Below are positions 3,428-24,699 of a stretch of 34,227 nucleotides of DNA, piece after piece. Each line of letters starts with the position of its first letter. Position 1 is the stretch's first letter. The translations under genes were made by a program, and so were the position numbers. Location of the stretch: positions 1 through 34,227 of the IMG/VR virus record IMGVR_UViG_3300027985_000173, one strand, 5' to 3'. This DNA is from a virus. A model generated the notes under the pieces. That model made no database searches. It had not been told where the DNA came from and saw only the letters and a program-made list of their open reading frames with translations.

Positions 3428-6067
3428 TTAGCTCCCGATCGTCACGGTTGCGGGGTCGGAGGTCGTCTGCACCGGGCTAAAGTCGGGGGCCGAGGTGTAG
3501 CATTCCACGATGGAGTCATGAGACTCACCCACATGGTCCACGATAGCCTGCGCTTCGATGGATGCCAGACAGTAGTTGGCAATCGTTCCAGAGTTCTGCA
3601 CCGCCGTATAGCGAAGCTGCGCGATGCGTGTTCCACGCGGAACATTTACGCGCTTGCTCCGCTGCGTCCAGTTACCGGGGGCGGTAGTCTGGTCCGTGTC
3701 GGCTTCAAGCAGGGTAGGTGCGACACCGATGTTCGAGCGGCTTTCCCAACCAGCGATTGCCGGGTAACCGGAATCATCGGCCGTGTTGTTGTACCCGCGC
3801 TGGAAGAACTTGGTCGCGATGCTAACCTTGCCGGCGTCAACAGTCTCCTCGGCCTCAGTGGTGTTGGAGGCGTCGTAAACGCGCATCTGGATACCGTCGA
3901 AGATGCCGTTGCAGATGGTTCCACTCACCAGCGTTTGATTCACGTCAACACGAATCTTCGTGGTATTCGTGGGGATAGCAATACCGGACAGGAAACGCGG
4001 ACTCCACGTCTGGACGGTCCATTCAGTGTCGTCCGATTGGTGCAGTACAGAGATGTCCGTGTCGGTGTTGTCCACAGCGGTCACGGTCACTTGGATGGAG
4101 TCGTTCGGCAGAGCCTGCGCGAAGTTGCAGCCAATCGCGTACTCAAGGAAGAGGGCCGCGTTGCCTGCTGCAATTGTGGCCAGCGCCTCGGCATCGGTAA
4201 TCTCAGCGGTCTGGTGGATATGGGTCGTTCCGGTGGGCTGGAAATAGTAGTTCCAGGAGTACGCCCACCACGTCTGAGTCGTCTGCACGACTGCTCCGGT
4301 TCCCGTGGCAACCGTCCAGTTCGCGAAGCTGCCAAACTGAAAACATCTGTTAAGCAGGGGGACATCCCACATCTTAGCACCACACAGCACTTCAATGGGA
4401 ACACACTGATACCAATATCCTCCATCACCGATGACGCCGTTGAACAGTTCGCCGGCCGGCTGGAAAGGTTGGTCCTCGTAGTCTATGCCAGTAGGTGAAC
4501 CCATCTCCGAATTATTCCAGATGCGGGGTAAGTTGGCGGCCAGGATGGTTCCGGTCTGGCGCCAAGTCGTTGTCGTCTCGTCACCCAACCCGGTCGACCA
4601 AGTTGCCTCATTGGTCCATTGCACCATCCAAGTCTCGGCATCATCCGTAGTGGGAATCCAATCGTCCTTCACGGCCATTATGGTGTCATAGACGGATTCC
4701 AGCTCCCCGGCTTCGCGTAGGCGGGGGGTTACGTCAAAGGTCGTGAAACAATCGCAGATCGTGGTGGGGCCGATAAGCGCACCGAGCGGGTAGACCATGC
4801 GGTCCATCGTGAACGTGGGGCCGTCCCCGGTCGGGTCCAAGTAGGCCATTGCCGCCGTCGTGGAGGCGATGGTGTTCTTAGAAATCAGTCCGGGACAGGT
4901 CGCCGGGAAATACGCCTCAAGGGCAGCGATCACGGCATCCGTTTCGGTGGCGTCAGCGGGAGCGGACCAACCTTCCAAAAGGCAGCACACGACACCCGAC
5001 ATGAACCCGGTCGCCATGGATGTGCCATTGTACCAATCCATAGACAGCCCACGAGTCCCTGCGAGAATGTCACGACCGGGCGCGTTGGAGTCCACGTCCG
5101 AGCCGTAATTGGAAAAGGTGCAGTGCTGGTCGTCCATGTCCGTTGCCGCAATGGTGAATGTATGGGAGTCCGATCCGGGGAAAAAGTTCGCCGTGTTGCC
5201 GTTGTTACCAGCAGCACAGACAGGGATGATTCCCGCCCCGGCAAGAGCCGCCATCGGGGTTGAGTAAGAAAGGGAACCACCCCAAGAACAATTGCATATT
5301 GCGGGTGTATTGGGATAGTTCGCCGTGTGGTAGGACACGACAGCATTCACGGCATTGGTGAGGCTGGTAATGGTTCCGGAGCCGGCCGCGTTGAGACCCT
5401 TTCCCCACTTAACCGGAGATTGCTTGGCGGGGCCGAATACCTTGCCAGTACCGGAGGATGCCACATGCGTGCCGTGGGAGTTGTCGTCGATATTCGTGAC
5501 GTAATATTCATACAGCTTTTCCGATTTGGTGAGCTTACCGTCACAGACCAGAAATTCAGGATGCTCGTCGTCGACCCCGGAATCTACGTCATAGTAGATA
5601 ACCCCGTTGCCTTGCTTGCCAGTGTTCTGGATAACATGCACACCCTTGGCAATGCTGCGTTTCAGGGTTCCGCCCAAGTTATTCACCAAGGACTCAACAC
5701 GAAAATGGCCCCAATGTGCGCCTTGCACAGTCGGGTCGTATTCAACGTGCCTGTCCAATCCGGTGTACTTGTATTTGGCAGGGAGTTCACCAGATGCCAG
5801 CAGGTCGATGAAATTGGAATCATAGGTCAGGTTCTGTGCTTCACAATGGGAAACAGGCGTGTCACCATCGACAGCCTGTTCCACACTTTCACACATATTG
5901 ATACAGGCAAGGGCTTCTTCCTGCGTCATGTTTTCCGGGTAGTGCAGGCTGAAGTTCCGGGGGAGGGCATCATAGTCGGTGTCCACAGTGAACCCGAACT
6001 CCTCCAAAAAGAAATCGAAGTTGTCCCGGGTCGCCTGCTCGGTGAGAGAAACTTCAATGACGGACAT
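3428..6067 (-). CDS. Subtilisin-like (S8) serine protease with I9-like prodomain and jelly-roll C-terminal modules
   Basis: This 879-residue protein carries a complete S8 active site: Asp in DSGVDDEHPEF (D162), His in NSHGTHVAS (H198), oxyanion Asn in AAGNNG (N288) and Ser in NGTSMATGF (S350). Residues 1-70 resemble an inhibitor I9 prodomain and end with the typical VEQAVDGD. Residues 575-732 and roughly 748-842 look like beta-sandwich modules (a W in the first strand region; a P-x-GT/NT-x-KI/RI strand; a closing FDGIQMRV or ASIEAQA strand), similar in pattern to galactose-binding folds. There is no signal peptide. It lies after the tail fibre genes and before the holin, so it could be a virion tail or adhesion protease, a maturation protease, or a lysis-time enzyme. 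Its start overlaps the preceding stop by one base. Confidence 0.9.
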   Translation of the reverse strand: MSVIEVSLTEQATRDNFDFFLEEFGFTVDTDYDALPRNFSLHYPENMTQEEALACINMCESVEQAVDGDTPVSHCEAQNLTYDSNFIDLLASGELPAKYKYTGLDRHVEYDPTVQGAHWGHFRVESLVNNLGGTLKRSIAKGVHVIQNTGKQGNGVIYYDVDSGVDDEHPEFLVCDGKLTKSEKLYEYYVTNIDDNSHGTHVASSGTGKVFGPAKQSPVKWGKGLNAAGSGTITSLTNAVNAVVSYHTANYPNTPAICNCSWGGSLSYSTPMAALAGAGIIPVCAAGNNGNTANFFPGSDSHTFTIAATDMDDQHCTFSNYGSDVDSNAPGRDILAGTRGLSMDWYNGTSMATGFMSGVVCCLLEGWSAPADATETDAVIAALEAYFPATCPGLISKNTIASTTAAMAYLDPTGDGPTFTMDRMVYPLGALIGPTTICDCFTTFDVTPRLREAGELESVYDTIMAVKDDWIPTTDDAETWMVQWTNEATWSTGLGDETTTTWRQTGTILAANLPRIWNNSEMGSPTGIDYEDQPFQPAGELFNGVIGDGGYWYQCVPIEVLCGAKMWDVPLLNRCFQFGSFANWTVATGTGAVVQTTQTWWAYSWNYYFQPTGTTHIHQTAEITDAEALATIAAGNAALFLEYAIGCNFAQALPNDSIQVTVTAVDNTDTDISVLHQSDDTEWTVQTWSPRFLSGIAIPTNTTKIRVDVNQTLVSGTICNGIFDGIQMRVYDASNTTEAEETVDAGKVSIATKFFQRGYNNTADDSGYPAIAGWESRSNIGVAPTLLEADTDQTTAPGNWTQRSKRVNVPRGTRIAQLRYTAVQNSGTIANYCLASIEAQAIVDHVGESHDSIVECYTSAPDFSPVQTTSDPATVTIGS

Positions 6068-20964: not shown

Positions 20965-22104
20965 TTACTGAGTGTCACCGAGAACGGTGATACGGCGCGG
21001 GTCGAAGGCTTCGGCACCGCACAGCAGGTCGAGGGACATGGTCTCCTTCTTGGTGGTCATGTCGTAACCGCGGACGAGGCGGATGGACACGCCGTCCATG
21101 GTGACGACGGAGGCCGGCTTGTCGGAAGGCATGTCGAGCAGCGGGAACGCCGTGGCGAGGGAGCGGTCATCCATGATGACGCCGCGCACGTCGTAGGTGG
21201 TTCCGGAACCGATAACGGTAACGGCCGCACCGTCCTCGATGATCTCGGTGATCGGGTCAACCAGCGGGATCGCGGTTGCGCCGGCGAGAACTTCGGAGGC
21301 GACGATCAGCGGGCGACGCAGCCCGGTGACGGAGATGCGGTCGCCGGCGTTGAAAGTGCCGGTCGTGGCATCGACGGTCAGGGAGGACAGGCCGATCAGG
21401 TTGTTGGTGGCGACAGCGCTGTCCACAGTGGTGGCACCGTCTCCGGCGGTACGGGAGAACTCGGGGAAGGCGATGGAGGACCAGAAGTCCATGCCCATCA
21501 GGCGACCCATGAGGCCTTCGCGCAGGCGCCGTTCGGCGTCAGCGCCGCCGGTCTGTGCTTGGTTGAAGACGGTGTTGCCGAGCAGGGTAGCTTCGAGGGT
21601 CAGGTCCACGAGGGACAGACGGTTGAACTCGAGCTGCTGGATGGTGGCAGCCTTACGGGCGGCGGCCATATCGGCGACATCACCGAACAGGGATGCGGAG
21701 GTGTAGAGACCGGCGCCCTTCAGGAGCTTGGTGCCGACGTAGGTGTCGACCTTTTCGGCCAGACGACCCATCGCGGGAGCCAGGACTTCCTTGGAGAAGC
21801 CGTCGAAGTTGAGCGCCTGCTCCTTGGCACCGATCTGGACGGTGACGTCGAAGTGCTTCTCGATTTCCATGGAACGGACGGAGTTGCGGATGTTCTGGAC
21901 GTTCACGGTGCCGCTGAACTCGTCAACGGTGTAATCGCCGTACTGCTTGATATCGACCTTGGAACCGATGGCGTAGCCGTTCGGGCGTACCATGAAGTCC
22001 GCGGTCTTGTCCTTTGCCGTGAGGGGAGCAATGATCATCTTGTCCATAAGGATGGACAGCGCTTCGGCGGCAATCATGCTCGGGTTGTTGAAATAGTTGC
22101 TCAT
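20965..22104 (-). CDS. Major capsid protein (P22 coat-like fold family)
   Basis: The 379-residue protein starts MSNYFNNPSMIAAEALSILMDKM, with blocks GSKVDIKQYGDYTVDEF, KHFDVTVQIGAKEQALN and LAPAMGRLAEKVDTYVG, the pattern of P22-type coat proteins. A beta insert at about 240-300 (TFNAGDRISVTGLRRPLIV) is similar in place to the coat insertion domain. Codon use is strongly biased to C/G third bases. It starts behind AAAGGAG, and its message begins at a strong promoter about 210 bases upstream with a structured leader. It lies far from scaffold because an inverted gene islet separates them. Confidence 0.92.
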   Translation of the reverse strand: MSNYFNNPSMIAAEALSILMDKMIIAPLTAKDKTADFMVRPNGYAIGSKVDIKQYGDYTVDEFSGTVNVQNIRNSVRSMEIEKHFDVTVQIGAKEQALNFDGFSKEVLAPAMGRLAEKVDTYVGTKLLKGAGLYTSASLFGDVADMAAARKAATIQQLEFNRLSLVDLTLEATLLGNTVFNQAQTGGADAERRLREGLMGRLMGMDFWSSIAFPEFSRTAGDGATTVDSAVATNNLIGLSSLTVDATTGTFNAGDRISVTGLRRPLIVASEVLAGATAIPLVDPITEIIEDGAAVTVIGSGTTYDVRGVIMDDRSLATAFPLLDMPSDKPASVVTMDGVSIRLVRGYDMTTKKETMSLDLLCGAEAFDPRRITVLGDTQ

Positions 22105-22130
22105 GTGAGACTCTCCTTTTTGGATGCACC

Positions 22131-22179
22131 CAAAATGAAAAGCGGGCGCAGATTAACGTGATGTTATCCTGCACCCGCT
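22131..22179 (-). promoter_or_regulatory. Terminator-like hairpin in capsid mRNA leader (possible attenuator)
   Basis: AGCGGGCGCAG (22141-22151) pairs with CTGCACCCGCT (22169-22179), 11 bp with one G-U-type position. The loop can add an inner stem TAAC/GTTA. Read on the minus strand it is followed by TTTCATTTTG, a fair U-rich tail. It lies between the capsid promoter and the capsid start codon, so it could act as an attenuator or, for messages coming from further right, as a terminator. Confidence 0.65.
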
Positions 22180-22214
22180 CGGCCTTACCGTGCTGGCGGC
22201 TGTCCGGCCTTACC
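22180..22214 (-). repeat. 10-bp direct repeat in capsid leader
   Basis: CGGCCTTACC occurs at 22180-22189 and again at 22205-22214. The second copy is inside a 7-bp hairpin: TGTCCGG (22201-22207) with CCAGACA (22213-22219), closed by a 5-base loop. The repeat may be a protein-binding or RNA-structure element. Confidence 0.5.
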
Positions 22215-22317
22215 AGACAAACAATGGATCGTCGCTCTAGCCCCCTATTGCTCCAGCCTAACCTTTGCAAACTCCGCTGCGCCTAACGCATTGGGCGGGG
22301 AACGACCTGATGAACCA

Positions 22318-22347
22318 TGTATAGGGTACGGGGTGTAATCAAGTCAA
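22318..22347 (-). promoter_or_regulatory. Strong sigma70-like promoter for capsid and downstream late genes
   Basis: On the minus strand TTGACT (22342-22347) is followed after 18 bases by TATACA (22318-22323). The A/T tract at 22352-22385 lies just upstream and could act as an UP element. It is the only strong promoter I see that can restart late transcription after the bidirectional terminator at 23871-23906. Confidence 0.75.
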
Positions 22348-22387: not shown

Positions 22388-22416
22388 TTGCCAGCTTTGC
22401 GAAAGCTAGCTATATT
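22388..22416 (+). promoter_or_regulatory. Promoter of the inverted islet, TTGCCA family
   Basis: TTGCCA (22388-22393), 17 bases, TATATT (22411-22416), then GTATTCACC. It is back to back with the capsid promoter across a shared A/T tract and closely resembles the promoter at 23224-23252. Confidence 0.8.
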
Positions 22417-22444
22417 GTATTCACCAACGAGGAGGAAGAACGAA

Positions 22445-22600
22445 ATGACTACCGAACAACTGATCATAGACCTGCTGGAAGAGAACACTTTTGAAGGAAC
22501 CATTGAAGCCGCTCGCGTGTTCCACGCAGCCTTCCCGCAGGCCACCGACGAGGATTGGGCCTACGTCGATGAATACCGCGAACTCCCCGTTAACATCTAA
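22445..22600 (+). CDS. 51-residue acidic protein, first gene of inverted islet
   Basis: The ATG at 22445 is behind a GAGGAGG site, so the upstream in-frame ATG at 22376 is rejected: it lies before the promoter. The product is rich in Glu/Asp and aromatic residues (DEDWAYVDEYRELPVNI at the end). No family is recognised. It is probably expressed early from the promoter at 22388-22416. Confidence 0.78.
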   Translation: MTTEQLIIDLLEENTFEGTIEAARVFHAAFPQATDEDWAYVDEYRELPVNI

Positions 22601-22611
22601 GGAGCAAGACA

Positions 22612-22806
22612 ATGCAGATCATTTACATTTACGCCGAGTACAACCAGAACAGCCGTGGCTTCGGTAACCTCCTCACTGACCAGCACGACAGCATCACCAA
22701 CCAAGCCGAATACGCCGAAAACTACGCCGAGCACGTTCGCACCTGCACCGCCCCCGGCACCCCGATCATCCTGGATGAAGGCGATGGCGTCAGGATGGTA
22801 TGGTAA
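22612..22806 (+). CDS. 64-residue phage protein, unknown
   Basis: The gene starts 11 bases after the previous stop behind TAAGGAG. The product begins MQIIYIYAEYNQNSRG and has a Tyr/Glu/Asn-rich middle (EYAENYAEHV). No family is recognised. Its stop TAA overlaps the ATG at 22806 of the next gene. Confidence 0.75.
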   Translation: MQIIYIYAEYNQNSRGFGNLLTDQHDSITNQAEYAENYAEHVRTCTAPGTPIILDEGDGVRMVW

Positions 22807-23213
22807 TGCGCACCCTCGTCGTTGCAACCTGTAGTTTCCAGAAGGGGGCGGAGCCCGCCCCCGCCCGGGAACTGTATCAGGGAGATTACTTCAAGGCTAT
22901 GATGCGGTACGCCAACCGCTACGGCACAGACTGGTGCATCCTGTCTGCCAAGCATGGCCTGATTAACCCCACGCAAGTGATCACGCCTTACAACCTTGCA
23001 TTCCCGGACCCCGAATGTGTCAGCGTGTGCAAGACCGTCCATGTGATCCTGAAGTATGACCTGCACAAGTACGACCGAATCGTCCTGCTCGGTGGATACC
23101 ACTATCGGCACCACATGGTCACCGCGTTGGAGGCCGCTGGATACGAAGGCGAGGTTGTTCACCCCACCGCCAAGATGCGCTACAACGACCAGATAAAAAC
23201 TTTGCTGAATTAG
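22806..23213 (+). CDS. YaaA / DUF6884-like protein
   Basis: The start at 22806 gives a TAATG overlap; an alternative ATG at 22800 adds two residues. The 135-residue product has the pattern RTLVVATCSFQK..APARELYQGDYF (about residues 2-29), WCILSAKHGLINP and ITPYNLAF, the signature of DUF6884 and YaaA-like proteins (CSK...APARELY...ILSAKHGLL.P...PYD). YaaA itself binds DNA and lowers oxidative damage; phage members have no proven role that I know. The usual second Lys of CSKxK is replaced here (CSFQK). It is the largest gene of the islet. Confidence 0.82.
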   Translation: MRTLVVATCSFQKGAEPAPARELYQGDYFKAMMRYANRYGTDWCILSAKHGLINPTQVITPYNLAFPDPECVSVCKTVHVILKYDLHKYDRIVLLGGYHYRHHMVTALEAAGYEGEVVHPTAKMRYNDQIKTLLN

Positions 23214-23223
23214 AATTTTTCGC

Positions 23224-23252
23224 TTGCCAGACTTGCCGGTTTTCCGTATTGT
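23224..23252 (+). promoter_or_regulatory. Second promoter of the inverted islet, TTGCCA family
   Basis: TTGCCA (23224-23229), 17 bases, TATTGT (23247-23252), then GTATTCAAC. It begins ten bases after the YaaA-like stop. The -35 box, the TTGC just after it and the region after -10 match the promoter at 22388-22416. A small GGGG-TACG-CCCC hairpin (23268-23279) lies in the leader. Confidence 0.78.
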
Positions 23253-23299
23253 GTATTCAACAAGAACGGGGTACGCCCCAACACACAAGGAGAACCAAA

Positions 23300-23650
23300 A
23301 TGACCACAGCAGAAGCCCGCCAAGAAATCGTCGACGCCCTGACCGCCAATCGCACCGAAGCCGAGGACATCCTCAACAGCCTGCCCGAGTACGACGACAC
23401 CATGATCGTCCTGTGCGGCGACCTCCCCATCCAGTTCACCGTGAATGGCCGTCACTACAGCAACGCCACCCCGGCCAGCCTTTCCACCGCCACCCGCTTC
23501 AACGATGTCAGCCCCGCAGCGGTTGACCGTGTGGCCGGCGTCGTTCGCAATGGTAATGGAACCCGCGGTCACGCCGTTCCCATGCGCCTCGCATGTGAAC
23601 AGTGCATCGACCGTATCAACGAACTGCTTGCTTCCATCGAGGAGAACTAA
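23300..23650 (+). CDS. 116-residue phage protein, unknown
   Basis: The ATG at 23300 follows AAGGAG; the upstream in-frame ATG at 23249 lies inside the promoter and is rejected. The product has an N-terminal helix with MTTAEARQEIVDALTANRTEAED, a central part with IQFTVNGRHYSNATPASL and a C-terminal helix with one CEQC. No family is recognised. It is coupled to the next gene, whose ribosome binding site (GGAG) lies in its last codons. Confidence 0.78.
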   Translation: MTTAEARQEIVDALTANRTEAEDILNSLPEYDDTMIVLCGDLPIQFTVNGRHYSNATPASLSTATRFNDVSPAAVDRVAGVVRNGNGTRGHAVPMRLACEQCIDRINELLASIEEN

Positions 23651-23651
23651 A

Positions 23652-23846
23652 ATGGCCGAAACAGTCGTACAGATTCTGATGCGTAGGGATGGCAACACTG
23701 AACAGGAGGCCCGGGACCGGGTCTCCGAAACCAAGGAACTGATCGAGGAGGCCATTGAGCGCGGTGATTACACCGAACCGGACGACATAATCCGGGACGA
23801 ATTGGGCCTCGAACCCGACTACTGCTTCGAAATTCTCGGCTACTAG
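23652..23846 (+). CDS. 64-residue acidic helical protein, common in phage
   Basis: The ATG at 23652 follows GAGGAGAACTAAA; a longer frame to 23445 overlaps the previous gene and is rejected. The product reads as two helices ending in DIIRDELGLEPDYCFEILG. Small phage proteins with the same plan (EEA...V.E....I..GDY.E.DDI..DELGLE.DY.F..L) are common and uncharacterised. It is the last gene of the islet. Confidence 0.8.
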   Translation: MAETVVQILMRRDGNTEQEARDRVSETKELIEEAIERGDYTEPDDIIRDELGLEPDYCFEILGY

Positions 23847-23849
23847 GGC

Positions 23850-23862
23850 CGGCATACCTGTA
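23850..23862 (+). repeat. 13-bp repeat, copy 2 (first copy at 1678-1690)
   Basis: CGGCATACCTGTA again lies directly after the last gene of a plus-strand cluster and before its terminator, as at 1678-1690. Confidence 0.6.
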
Positions 23863-23870
23863 AATAGAAA

Positions 23871-23906
23871 AACACCCCCTAACCCGGTACACCGGGAGGG
23901 GGTGTT
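23871..23906. terminator. Bidirectional terminator between islet and scaffold gene
   Basis: AACACCCCCT (23871-23880) pairs with AGGGGGTGTT (23897-23906), with an inner CCCGG/CCGGG stem. The plus strand continues AATTTTTAAA; the minus strand continues TTTCTATTT. It separates the convergent islet genes and scaffold gene, so it can stop both transcripts. Confidence 0.85.
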
Positions 23907-23937: not shown

Positions 23938-24699
23938 TTATTTACCCGCAGCCTTGGCCTTTTCCCGGCGAAGTCGGTTGTAGGTCTCCATGTCGCCCTT
24001 GGAGGCGGCAGCAGCCATACGCGCCTCGATATCGGAGCCGCCCATGTCCGCGCCATCACCACCGAGGCCACCACCCTTGGAGGCGGGCCAGTAGTGCGGG
24101 GCGTCCTTCTTCAGGGCTTCGAGGAAACGGGCCGGGGTCAGCAGGTCGCCGTCAGCGTTCTTGAGCAGGTTGCCGTCCTTGTCGCGGGCTTCGAGTTCAC
24201 CCTTTTCGTTCACGACGAACAGTTCACGGGCGCGGCGGTTGATATCGTCCAGGGCCGAGGGTACGACTTTGGATTCGAGTGCCAGCTTGCCGACCTGCTC
24301 GCTGACGACATGGGATTCATATTTGGACCGGAACAGGTCGCGTTCGCTGGCAGTCTGTTCCAGCGTACCCTTCATGCCCTTGAGCTGGTCCTCGTAGGTG
24401 GCCTTGACACCGTCGACCTTCTTGGCGACCAGATCATCCAGACGACCATCCTTCAGCATCTGGAGGTCGGCGTCCTTGTCCATCTTTTCCAGGAGCTCGC
24501 GGGTCTTGACCGGGTCAATACCTTCGAACTGCTTCAGGGTCTCACCCTGCTTATTCAGCTTTTCCAGCAGCTCGTTGTTCTTGCCCTTCAGCCCGTCGAC
24601 CTCTTTGCCGACAGCTTCCTGAACCAGCTTGCCAACCTGACCGTTCAGGCTTTCCTTTACTTCCTGCGGGATCTCCGCGGTTCCGAAATCGAGTTCCAT
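23938..24699 (-). CDS. Capsid scaffold protein
   Basis: The 253-residue protein is highly charged and helical: long Lys/Glu-rich coiled coil at about 25-130 (GKNNELLEKLNKQGETLKQF), then LLTPARFLEALKKDAPHYWP and a Gly-rich linker before a basic C-terminal helix (DMETYNRLRREKAKAAGK). This plan, and the place between the MuF-like gene and capsid, is typical of phage scaffold proteins. The basic end probably binds coat protein. It starts behind AAAGGAG. Confidence 0.88.
   Translation of the reverse strand: MELDFGTAEIPQEVKESLNGQVGKLVQEAVGKEVDGLKGKNNELLEKLNKQGETLKQFEGIDPVKTRELLEKMDKDADLQMLKDGRLDDLVAKKVDGVKATYEDQLKGMKGTLEQTASERDLFRSKYESHVVSEQVGKLALESKVVPSALDDINRRARELFVVNEKGELEARDKDGNLLKNADGDLLTPARFLEALKKDAPHYWPASKGGGLGGDGADMGGSDIEARMAAAASKGDMETYNRLRREKAKAAGK

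Follow-up and report, generated by a model that had tools for sequence, protein, structure and literature searches.

By its published definition, a phage moron is inserted where related phages have two genes side by side and carries its own promoter and terminator, an example being the 'ant moron' of P22-like phages (PMC2629481, PMC2920897); a different GC content is usual for such elements but not required (PMC2920897). The DUF6884 protein family, recognised by the motifs CxxxK and LSAxxG, has been reported by the Pfam curators to have a core fold and a positively charged cleft in common with YaaA, and its member YfjM has been reported as an interactor of abasic sites and of RNA bases in DNA (PMC11701544). 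DpdC, a 7-deazaguanine DNA-modification enzyme, is likewise reported to have the DUF6884 domain (PMC11888242), and in the DNA of phage Rosebush dPreQ0 has been measured at about 28% of G (PMC6884629).

The locus described here lies in the IMG/VR virus record IMGVR_UViG_3300027985_000173, analysed over positions 1 to 34,227 (the whole stretch of 34,227 nucleotides, hereafter the window), where five small genes, cds1-cds5, stand in reverse orientation among the head genes. The anatomy of this islet, its difference from related phages and the membership of one of its proteins in DUF6884 were established by computation. The islet is best explained, with a probability of roughly 60%, as an inverted moron seated in a pre-existing seam between scaffold and capsid, with a DUF6884 protein that would act on altered DNA bases.

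Anatomy of the inverted islet

The original prediction had five small plus-strand genes lying inside a minus-strand head operon, between scaffold and capsid, and the computed anatomy agrees (22445-23846; Table 1): a self-contained, oppositely transcribed cassette splits the head genes. The identities of the head genes are firm, and upstream of the scaffold a Mu F-like head protein, a DUF4055-type portal and the terminase all lie on the minus strand. Neither a tblastn search with the capsid nor a DNA-level search with the junction found a match in annotated phages. Elsewhere on the minus strand of the window, a tail-region protein of 879 aa (3428-6067) matches the protease family phrog_3677 at 1e-31.

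The genes of the islet run in tandem, each being preceded by a ribosome-binding site or translationally coupled, and the start of cds3 overlaps the stop of cds2. Measured against the codon use of the phage late genes, the mean log-likelihood is -3.85 in the cds1-cds5 frames, compared with -4.05 to -4.93 in the other five frames, and GC3 is 0.736 in the islet and 0.722 in the late genes; because codon use fits the late genes and GC3 is equal, these look like genuine genes settled in the phage genome. A recent foreign origin was rejected as far as composition is concerned, neither base composition nor codon use being foreign. Family searches of the Pfam and PHROG type could assign only cds3, the other four proteins being orphans, and cds1, cds2, cds4 and cds5 gave nothing significant in annotated phages, while a search of viral contigs with cds3, cds4 and cds5 returned 0 relatives. 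AlphaFold2 predictions from single sequences had low mean pLDDT (43.5 for cds4, 41.4 for cds3), and the window gave no matches in Rfam or tRNA scans.

Phage host-takeover regions typically contain small orphan acidic proteins under strong-looking promoters, and this counts for a reading of the islet as an anti-restriction or host-takeover cassette in which the small acidic proteins are the active agents, as DNA mimics or inhibitors of host enzymes, and the DUF6884 protein is secondary. The very acidic cds1 (net charge -10) and cds5 (-12.5) would suit such a role, but acidity alone is a weak argument and homology searches linked them to no known DNA mimic and no family, and we regard this reading as unlikely.

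Two promoters of the same type had been predicted for the islet, and computation agrees with this. P1 and P2, both just 5' of start codons, are identical at 33 of 48 positions, whereas no other 48-mer of the window goes beyond 26-27, and on account of this difference the two consensus matches are predicted to represent one promoter type; the bare promoter scan gives 2 sites against 2.4 expected, which is not above chance. Another promoter match, TTGCCA-17-TATGGT, lies on the minus strand at 32758-32680, with a GC hairpin and CACAAACAAGGAGAA behind it, and resembles the P2 leader; possibly it shares a non-late promoter type with P2. A shared early regulon of these two promoters was considered and not retained, their 24/48 identity being at chance level and only suggestive.

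The cds4 and cds5 genes under P2 could be pictured as a toxin-antitoxin pair and the islet as a stabilisation module, given that they form a two-gene unit with its own promoter and that cds5 has a very weak likeness to the ParD antitoxin (E 0.07). The ParD score of 13.1 bits is, however, far under the cut-off of 46.2, no toxin family was found in the islet, and this idea has next to no probability in our estimation.

The bidirectional terminator announced for the scaffold side was also recovered, with a hairpin of -28.7 kcal/mol on the plus strand (z -5.5) and -27.2 kcal/mol on the minus strand (z -4.4), 0 of 200 shuffles as stable on either strand, and U-tracts on both strands. It would stop the islet and scaffold transcripts from entering each other. 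A host-type RNA polymerase may transcribe the islet independently of late transcription, and the two sigma-70-like promoters would in this way keep expression of the five small proteins separate from the late messages.

Table 1. Features of the islet and its flanks (window coordinates).
Feature	Coordinates	Strand	Description
Capsid	20965-22104	-	P22-coat-like; PF11651 4e-17, phrog_283 2e-40
Capsid leader RNA	22105-22311	-	Repeated hairpins; terminator-like hairpin at 22142-22178
Capsid promoter (putative)	22318-22347	-	TTGACT-18-TATACA; counterpart in relatives; assigned to the ancestral junction, not the islet
P1 (predicted)	22388-22416	+	TTGCCA-17-TATATT, consensus scan; precedes cds1
cds1	22445-22600	+	51 aa, pI 4.05, very acidic, no family match
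cds2	22612-22806	+	64 aa, acidic, no family match
cds3	22806-23213 (alternative ATG 22800)	+	135 aa, DUF6884 protein, basic, pI 8.65
P2 (predicted)	23224-23252	+	TTGCCA-17-TATTGT, consensus scan; precedes cds4
cds4	23300-23650	+	116 aa, acidic, no family match
cds5	23652-23846	+	64 aa, pI 4.08, very acidic, no family match
Bidirectional terminator (predicted)	23871-23906	both	Between islet and scaffold; fold energy
Scaffold	23938-24699	-	phrog_206 6e-30

The scaffold/capsid seam and the capsid leader

Capsid relatives were drawn from viral contigs and one MAG contig, and 64 loci with both scaffold and capsid gave 57 distinct junctions besides the window (individual loci are cited by L numbers). 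The original prediction had looked to related phages for presence or absence of the cassette, and in all of those sampled it is absent: the islet or an islet-like protein occurs in 0 of the 57 junctions, which are short in 44 cases (126-352 bp) and larger in 13 (560-3361 bp), and no relative contig encodes an islet protein. This absence suggests that the islet may be dispensable for morphogenesis. As no close relative of the window phage was found, only the breadth of the absence distinguishes a gain in this phage from a loss in the others.

The larger junctions contain HNH genes, in sense orientation in L035 and L089 and antisense in L012 (PF13392, 2e-8), DUF723/DUF4379/REase-like, endonuclease-like genes in L005, L039 and L091, and structural genes in L003, the occupants having been determined by domain scans for L012 and L005 and by sequence resemblance for the others. 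The proteins of L005, L039 and L091 are 552-625 aa long, with repeated HGxF/CxxC units and a REase-like segment (in L005 the domains DUF723, DUF4379 and MTES_1575), and are likely homing-type endonucleases. Because the 13 larger junctions hold other material, the scaffold/capsid junction can be regarded as a recurrent insertion site of which the islet is one occupant. The inserts are not all at one point, the best promoter match being on the scaffold side in L035, L042 and L005. The presence of HNH and other endonuclease-like genes at the same junction in several relatives, once even antisense (L012), would accord with an islet that is the remnant of a homing-endonuclease or other selfish insertion with only its cargo left; but no endonuclease domain or remnant (HNH, GIY-YIG, LAGLIDADG or similar) was found in cds1-cds5, and five intact genes with organised promoters and a terminator likewise argue against such an origin, which we consider improbable.

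Among the 44 short junctions, 21 have a capsid promoter with a score of at least 10, against 0.95 expected from shuffles. It is typically a sigma-70-like promoter 5-40 nt past the stop codon of the scaffold, and the capsid leader measures about 115-180 nt (examples are TTGACA-16-TATAAT in L078, and L034 and L057), and a terminator-like hairpin follows the scaffold in L036, L050, L053 and L083. Because insert-free relatives already have a capsid promoter after the scaffold, transcription of the capsid apart from the scaffold is ancestral by this comparison, and the cassette occupies a pre-existing seam. The divergent strong capsid promoter of the original prediction is retained in part: the site is present and its counterpart in relatives supports it, but by itself it is plausible and not outstanding. 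The proposed uncoupling of capsid from scaffold expression by the cassette is not supported, since insert-free relatives have the capsid promoter and several of them a terminator too. The cassette lies between the scaffold end and the capsid promoter, and the proposal reverses cause and effect; uncoupling probably came first and made the site tolerant of inserts.

The same evidence bears on the idea that the islet arose as a device for keeping capsid and scaffold expression apart and regulates head stoichiometry. Its exact position between the two genes, flanked by a terminator towards the scaffold and a divergent promoter towards the capsid, speaks for this, but both the capsid promoter and the leader are present in insert-free relatives, and in some the scaffold terminator as well, so that the islet is superfluous for uncoupling and the idea is very improbable. 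For the preferred explanation, an inverted moron in a pre-existing seam, a seat past the scaffold transcription unit and ahead of the capsid's own promoter would mean that an insert need not be polar on the head genes. A tight head operon would thereby tolerate accessory genes where relatives already part scaffold from capsid transcription.

In the window, the capsid promoter is followed by a leader of about 200 nt, in which four G-YNRSG-C motifs form the tips of hairpins (pentaloops), with a terminator-like hairpin just before the capsid ribosome-binding site. The motif occurs 23 times in 14 leaders of the clade against 4.2 expected (maximum 10 in 300 shuffles), and 5 times in 45 other relatives against 2.9 expected, an enrichment that is partly circular since the motif was defined after viewing some of the sequences. 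The flank-pairing test is not circular: swapping flanks between motif copies destroys the pairing (a native sum of -179 kcal/mol against -104 for the best of 5000 permutations), and the motif sites also fold better than other G-C-closed 5-nt loops of the same leaders (Mann-Whitney p 3e-9). Pentaloop hairpins are also seen in L002, L036, L050, L053, L056, L059, L063, L078 and L080, their stems differing in sequence and still pairing. L036 and L053 have, in the last ~130 nt before the capsid, a final motif hairpin whose 3' arm (CAUAG) can also pair downstream; in L036 this alternative joins CAUAGUAAAAAC with GUUUUUACUAUG as part of the following long hairpin. This suggests mutually exclusive structures, as in attenuator-type switches. 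The Rfam scan of the window gave no match for the leader, and a literature search on capsid leader RNAs found nothing specific. The hairpins are a candidate for a new RNA element controlling the capsid. If this were true, an undescribed leader element would set the capsid dose by antitermination, attenuation or protein binding, and a structured RNA element would be added to the balance of phage capsid and scaffold.

The DUF6884 protein and its occurrence in phages

The cds3 protein matches PF21818 (DUF6884) at 1.3e-24, with 87.4 bits against a Pfam gathering cut-off of 30, and phrog_5935 at 5e-21, and its translation carries both family motifs, as CSFQK and LSAKHG. To YaaA proper (PF03883) it scores 18.4 bits, under the cut-off of 29.6; of the YaaA/DUF6884-like protein first proposed, the DUF6884 part is confirmed and true YaaA is not. 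In PADLOC, it matches PDC-M57A at 7e-20 and DpdC models at 3e-6 over ~54 residues. Full identity with DpdC was rejected, since these ~54 residues compare with models of ~310 positions and cds3 is a stand-alone protein of 135 aa. TGT/DpdA or QueC had no match in the 34-kb record, which may be incomplete.

Other phages place DUF6884 beside 7-deazaguanine genes, as far as a small, non-systematic sample can tell. In HRTV-29 it directly adjoins dpdA, in phiFN37 it adjoins a queuine tRNA-ribosyltransferase and a queuosine-precursor transporter, and in Rosebushvirus and Saguarovirus it occurs in records annotating such a transferase, QueC, QueD, QueE and GTP cyclohydrolase. Three mycobacteriophage genera, Rosebushvirus, Saguarovirus and Trigintaduovirus, carry the DUF6884 gene inverted within the structural operon, although the first two belong to one subfamily and the insertion points differ. 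Inverted genes of this kind are Saguaro gp22 (L102/L106), Hedgerow gp8 (L103) and Rem711 gp8 (L099), and Saguaro and Hedgerow also encode a preQ0/DpdA-type DNA-modification pathway. DUF6884 is found in other contexts in KS14, Naby, Kronos, BDU-MI-1, Ponzi and Chancellor, and also in phages without annotated dpdA, e.g., Rem711 and KS14. A broader picture can be offered tentatively, and is less probable than its negation: an ancestral seam with a clade leader RNA setting the capsid dose would be ridden by the cassette, and DUF6884 genes would be recurrent inverted passengers of structural operons, tied to 7-deazaguanine chemistry.

Because DUF6884 is the domain of DpdC and occurs with 7-deazaguanine genes, the favoured role for the islet is that of an accessory in DNA modification, repair or anti-restriction whose expression would be separate from that of the late genes, and this would be a better guess than the host takeover or defence of the original prediction. 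The cds3 protein may bind DNA and act on or recognise altered bases, in 7-deazaguanine-type modification or in lesion repair, and this activity would help to protect phage DNA from restriction by the host or from damage, with the four small acidic proteins as putative helpers or inhibitors of host factors. The widespread, uncharacterised DUF6884 family would thereby gain a testable function, that of accompanying DNA modification or repair in phages.

Comparison with known systems

In the terms of the moron definition, the islet is inserted between genes adjacent in relatives (44 of the 57 junctions are short and none holds the islet) and has, by computation, its own promoters and terminator (P1, P2 and the bidirectional terminator); a different GC content, judged by GC3, is not seen. 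Like the 'ant moron' of P22-like phages, it is a group, predicted to be expressed independently, in a late operon, variable among relatives and with its own promoters and terminator, and the 'ant moron' likewise sits at one fixed site of the morphogenetic cluster. Unlike the 'ant moron', it is sited between scaffold and capsid, its cargo is DUF6884 plus four orphans and its composition is not different.

Cds3 has the DUF6884 domain in common with DpdC of bacterial dpd islands (PMC11888242, PMC6884629), but is far shorter than the DpdC models (135 aa alone versus ~310), and dpdA was not found in the window; its relation to E. coli YaaA (PF03883), under whose cut-off it falls, is distant. The opposite-strand position of a DUF6884 gene within an operon of virion genes is met again in Rosebushvirus gp8, Saguaro gp22 and Rem711 gp4-gp8, the last being a multi-gene inverted islet between terminase and portal. 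These mycobacteriophage cases differ from the islet in insertion points and partners, and the DpdA-type/preQ0 genes of Rosebushvirus and Saguarovirus were not found in the window. Kagunavirus K1H, an isolated phage whose group gave the best-scoring terminase matches among annotated phages, has in gp17-gp20 a comparable four-gene, opposite-strand block of DNA metabolism inside its structural module, although this block lies in the tail genes and contains kinase and exonuclease genes. The inverted DUF6884 insertion described here is, in this company, a standard kind of accessory insertion, and its architecture itself is not new.
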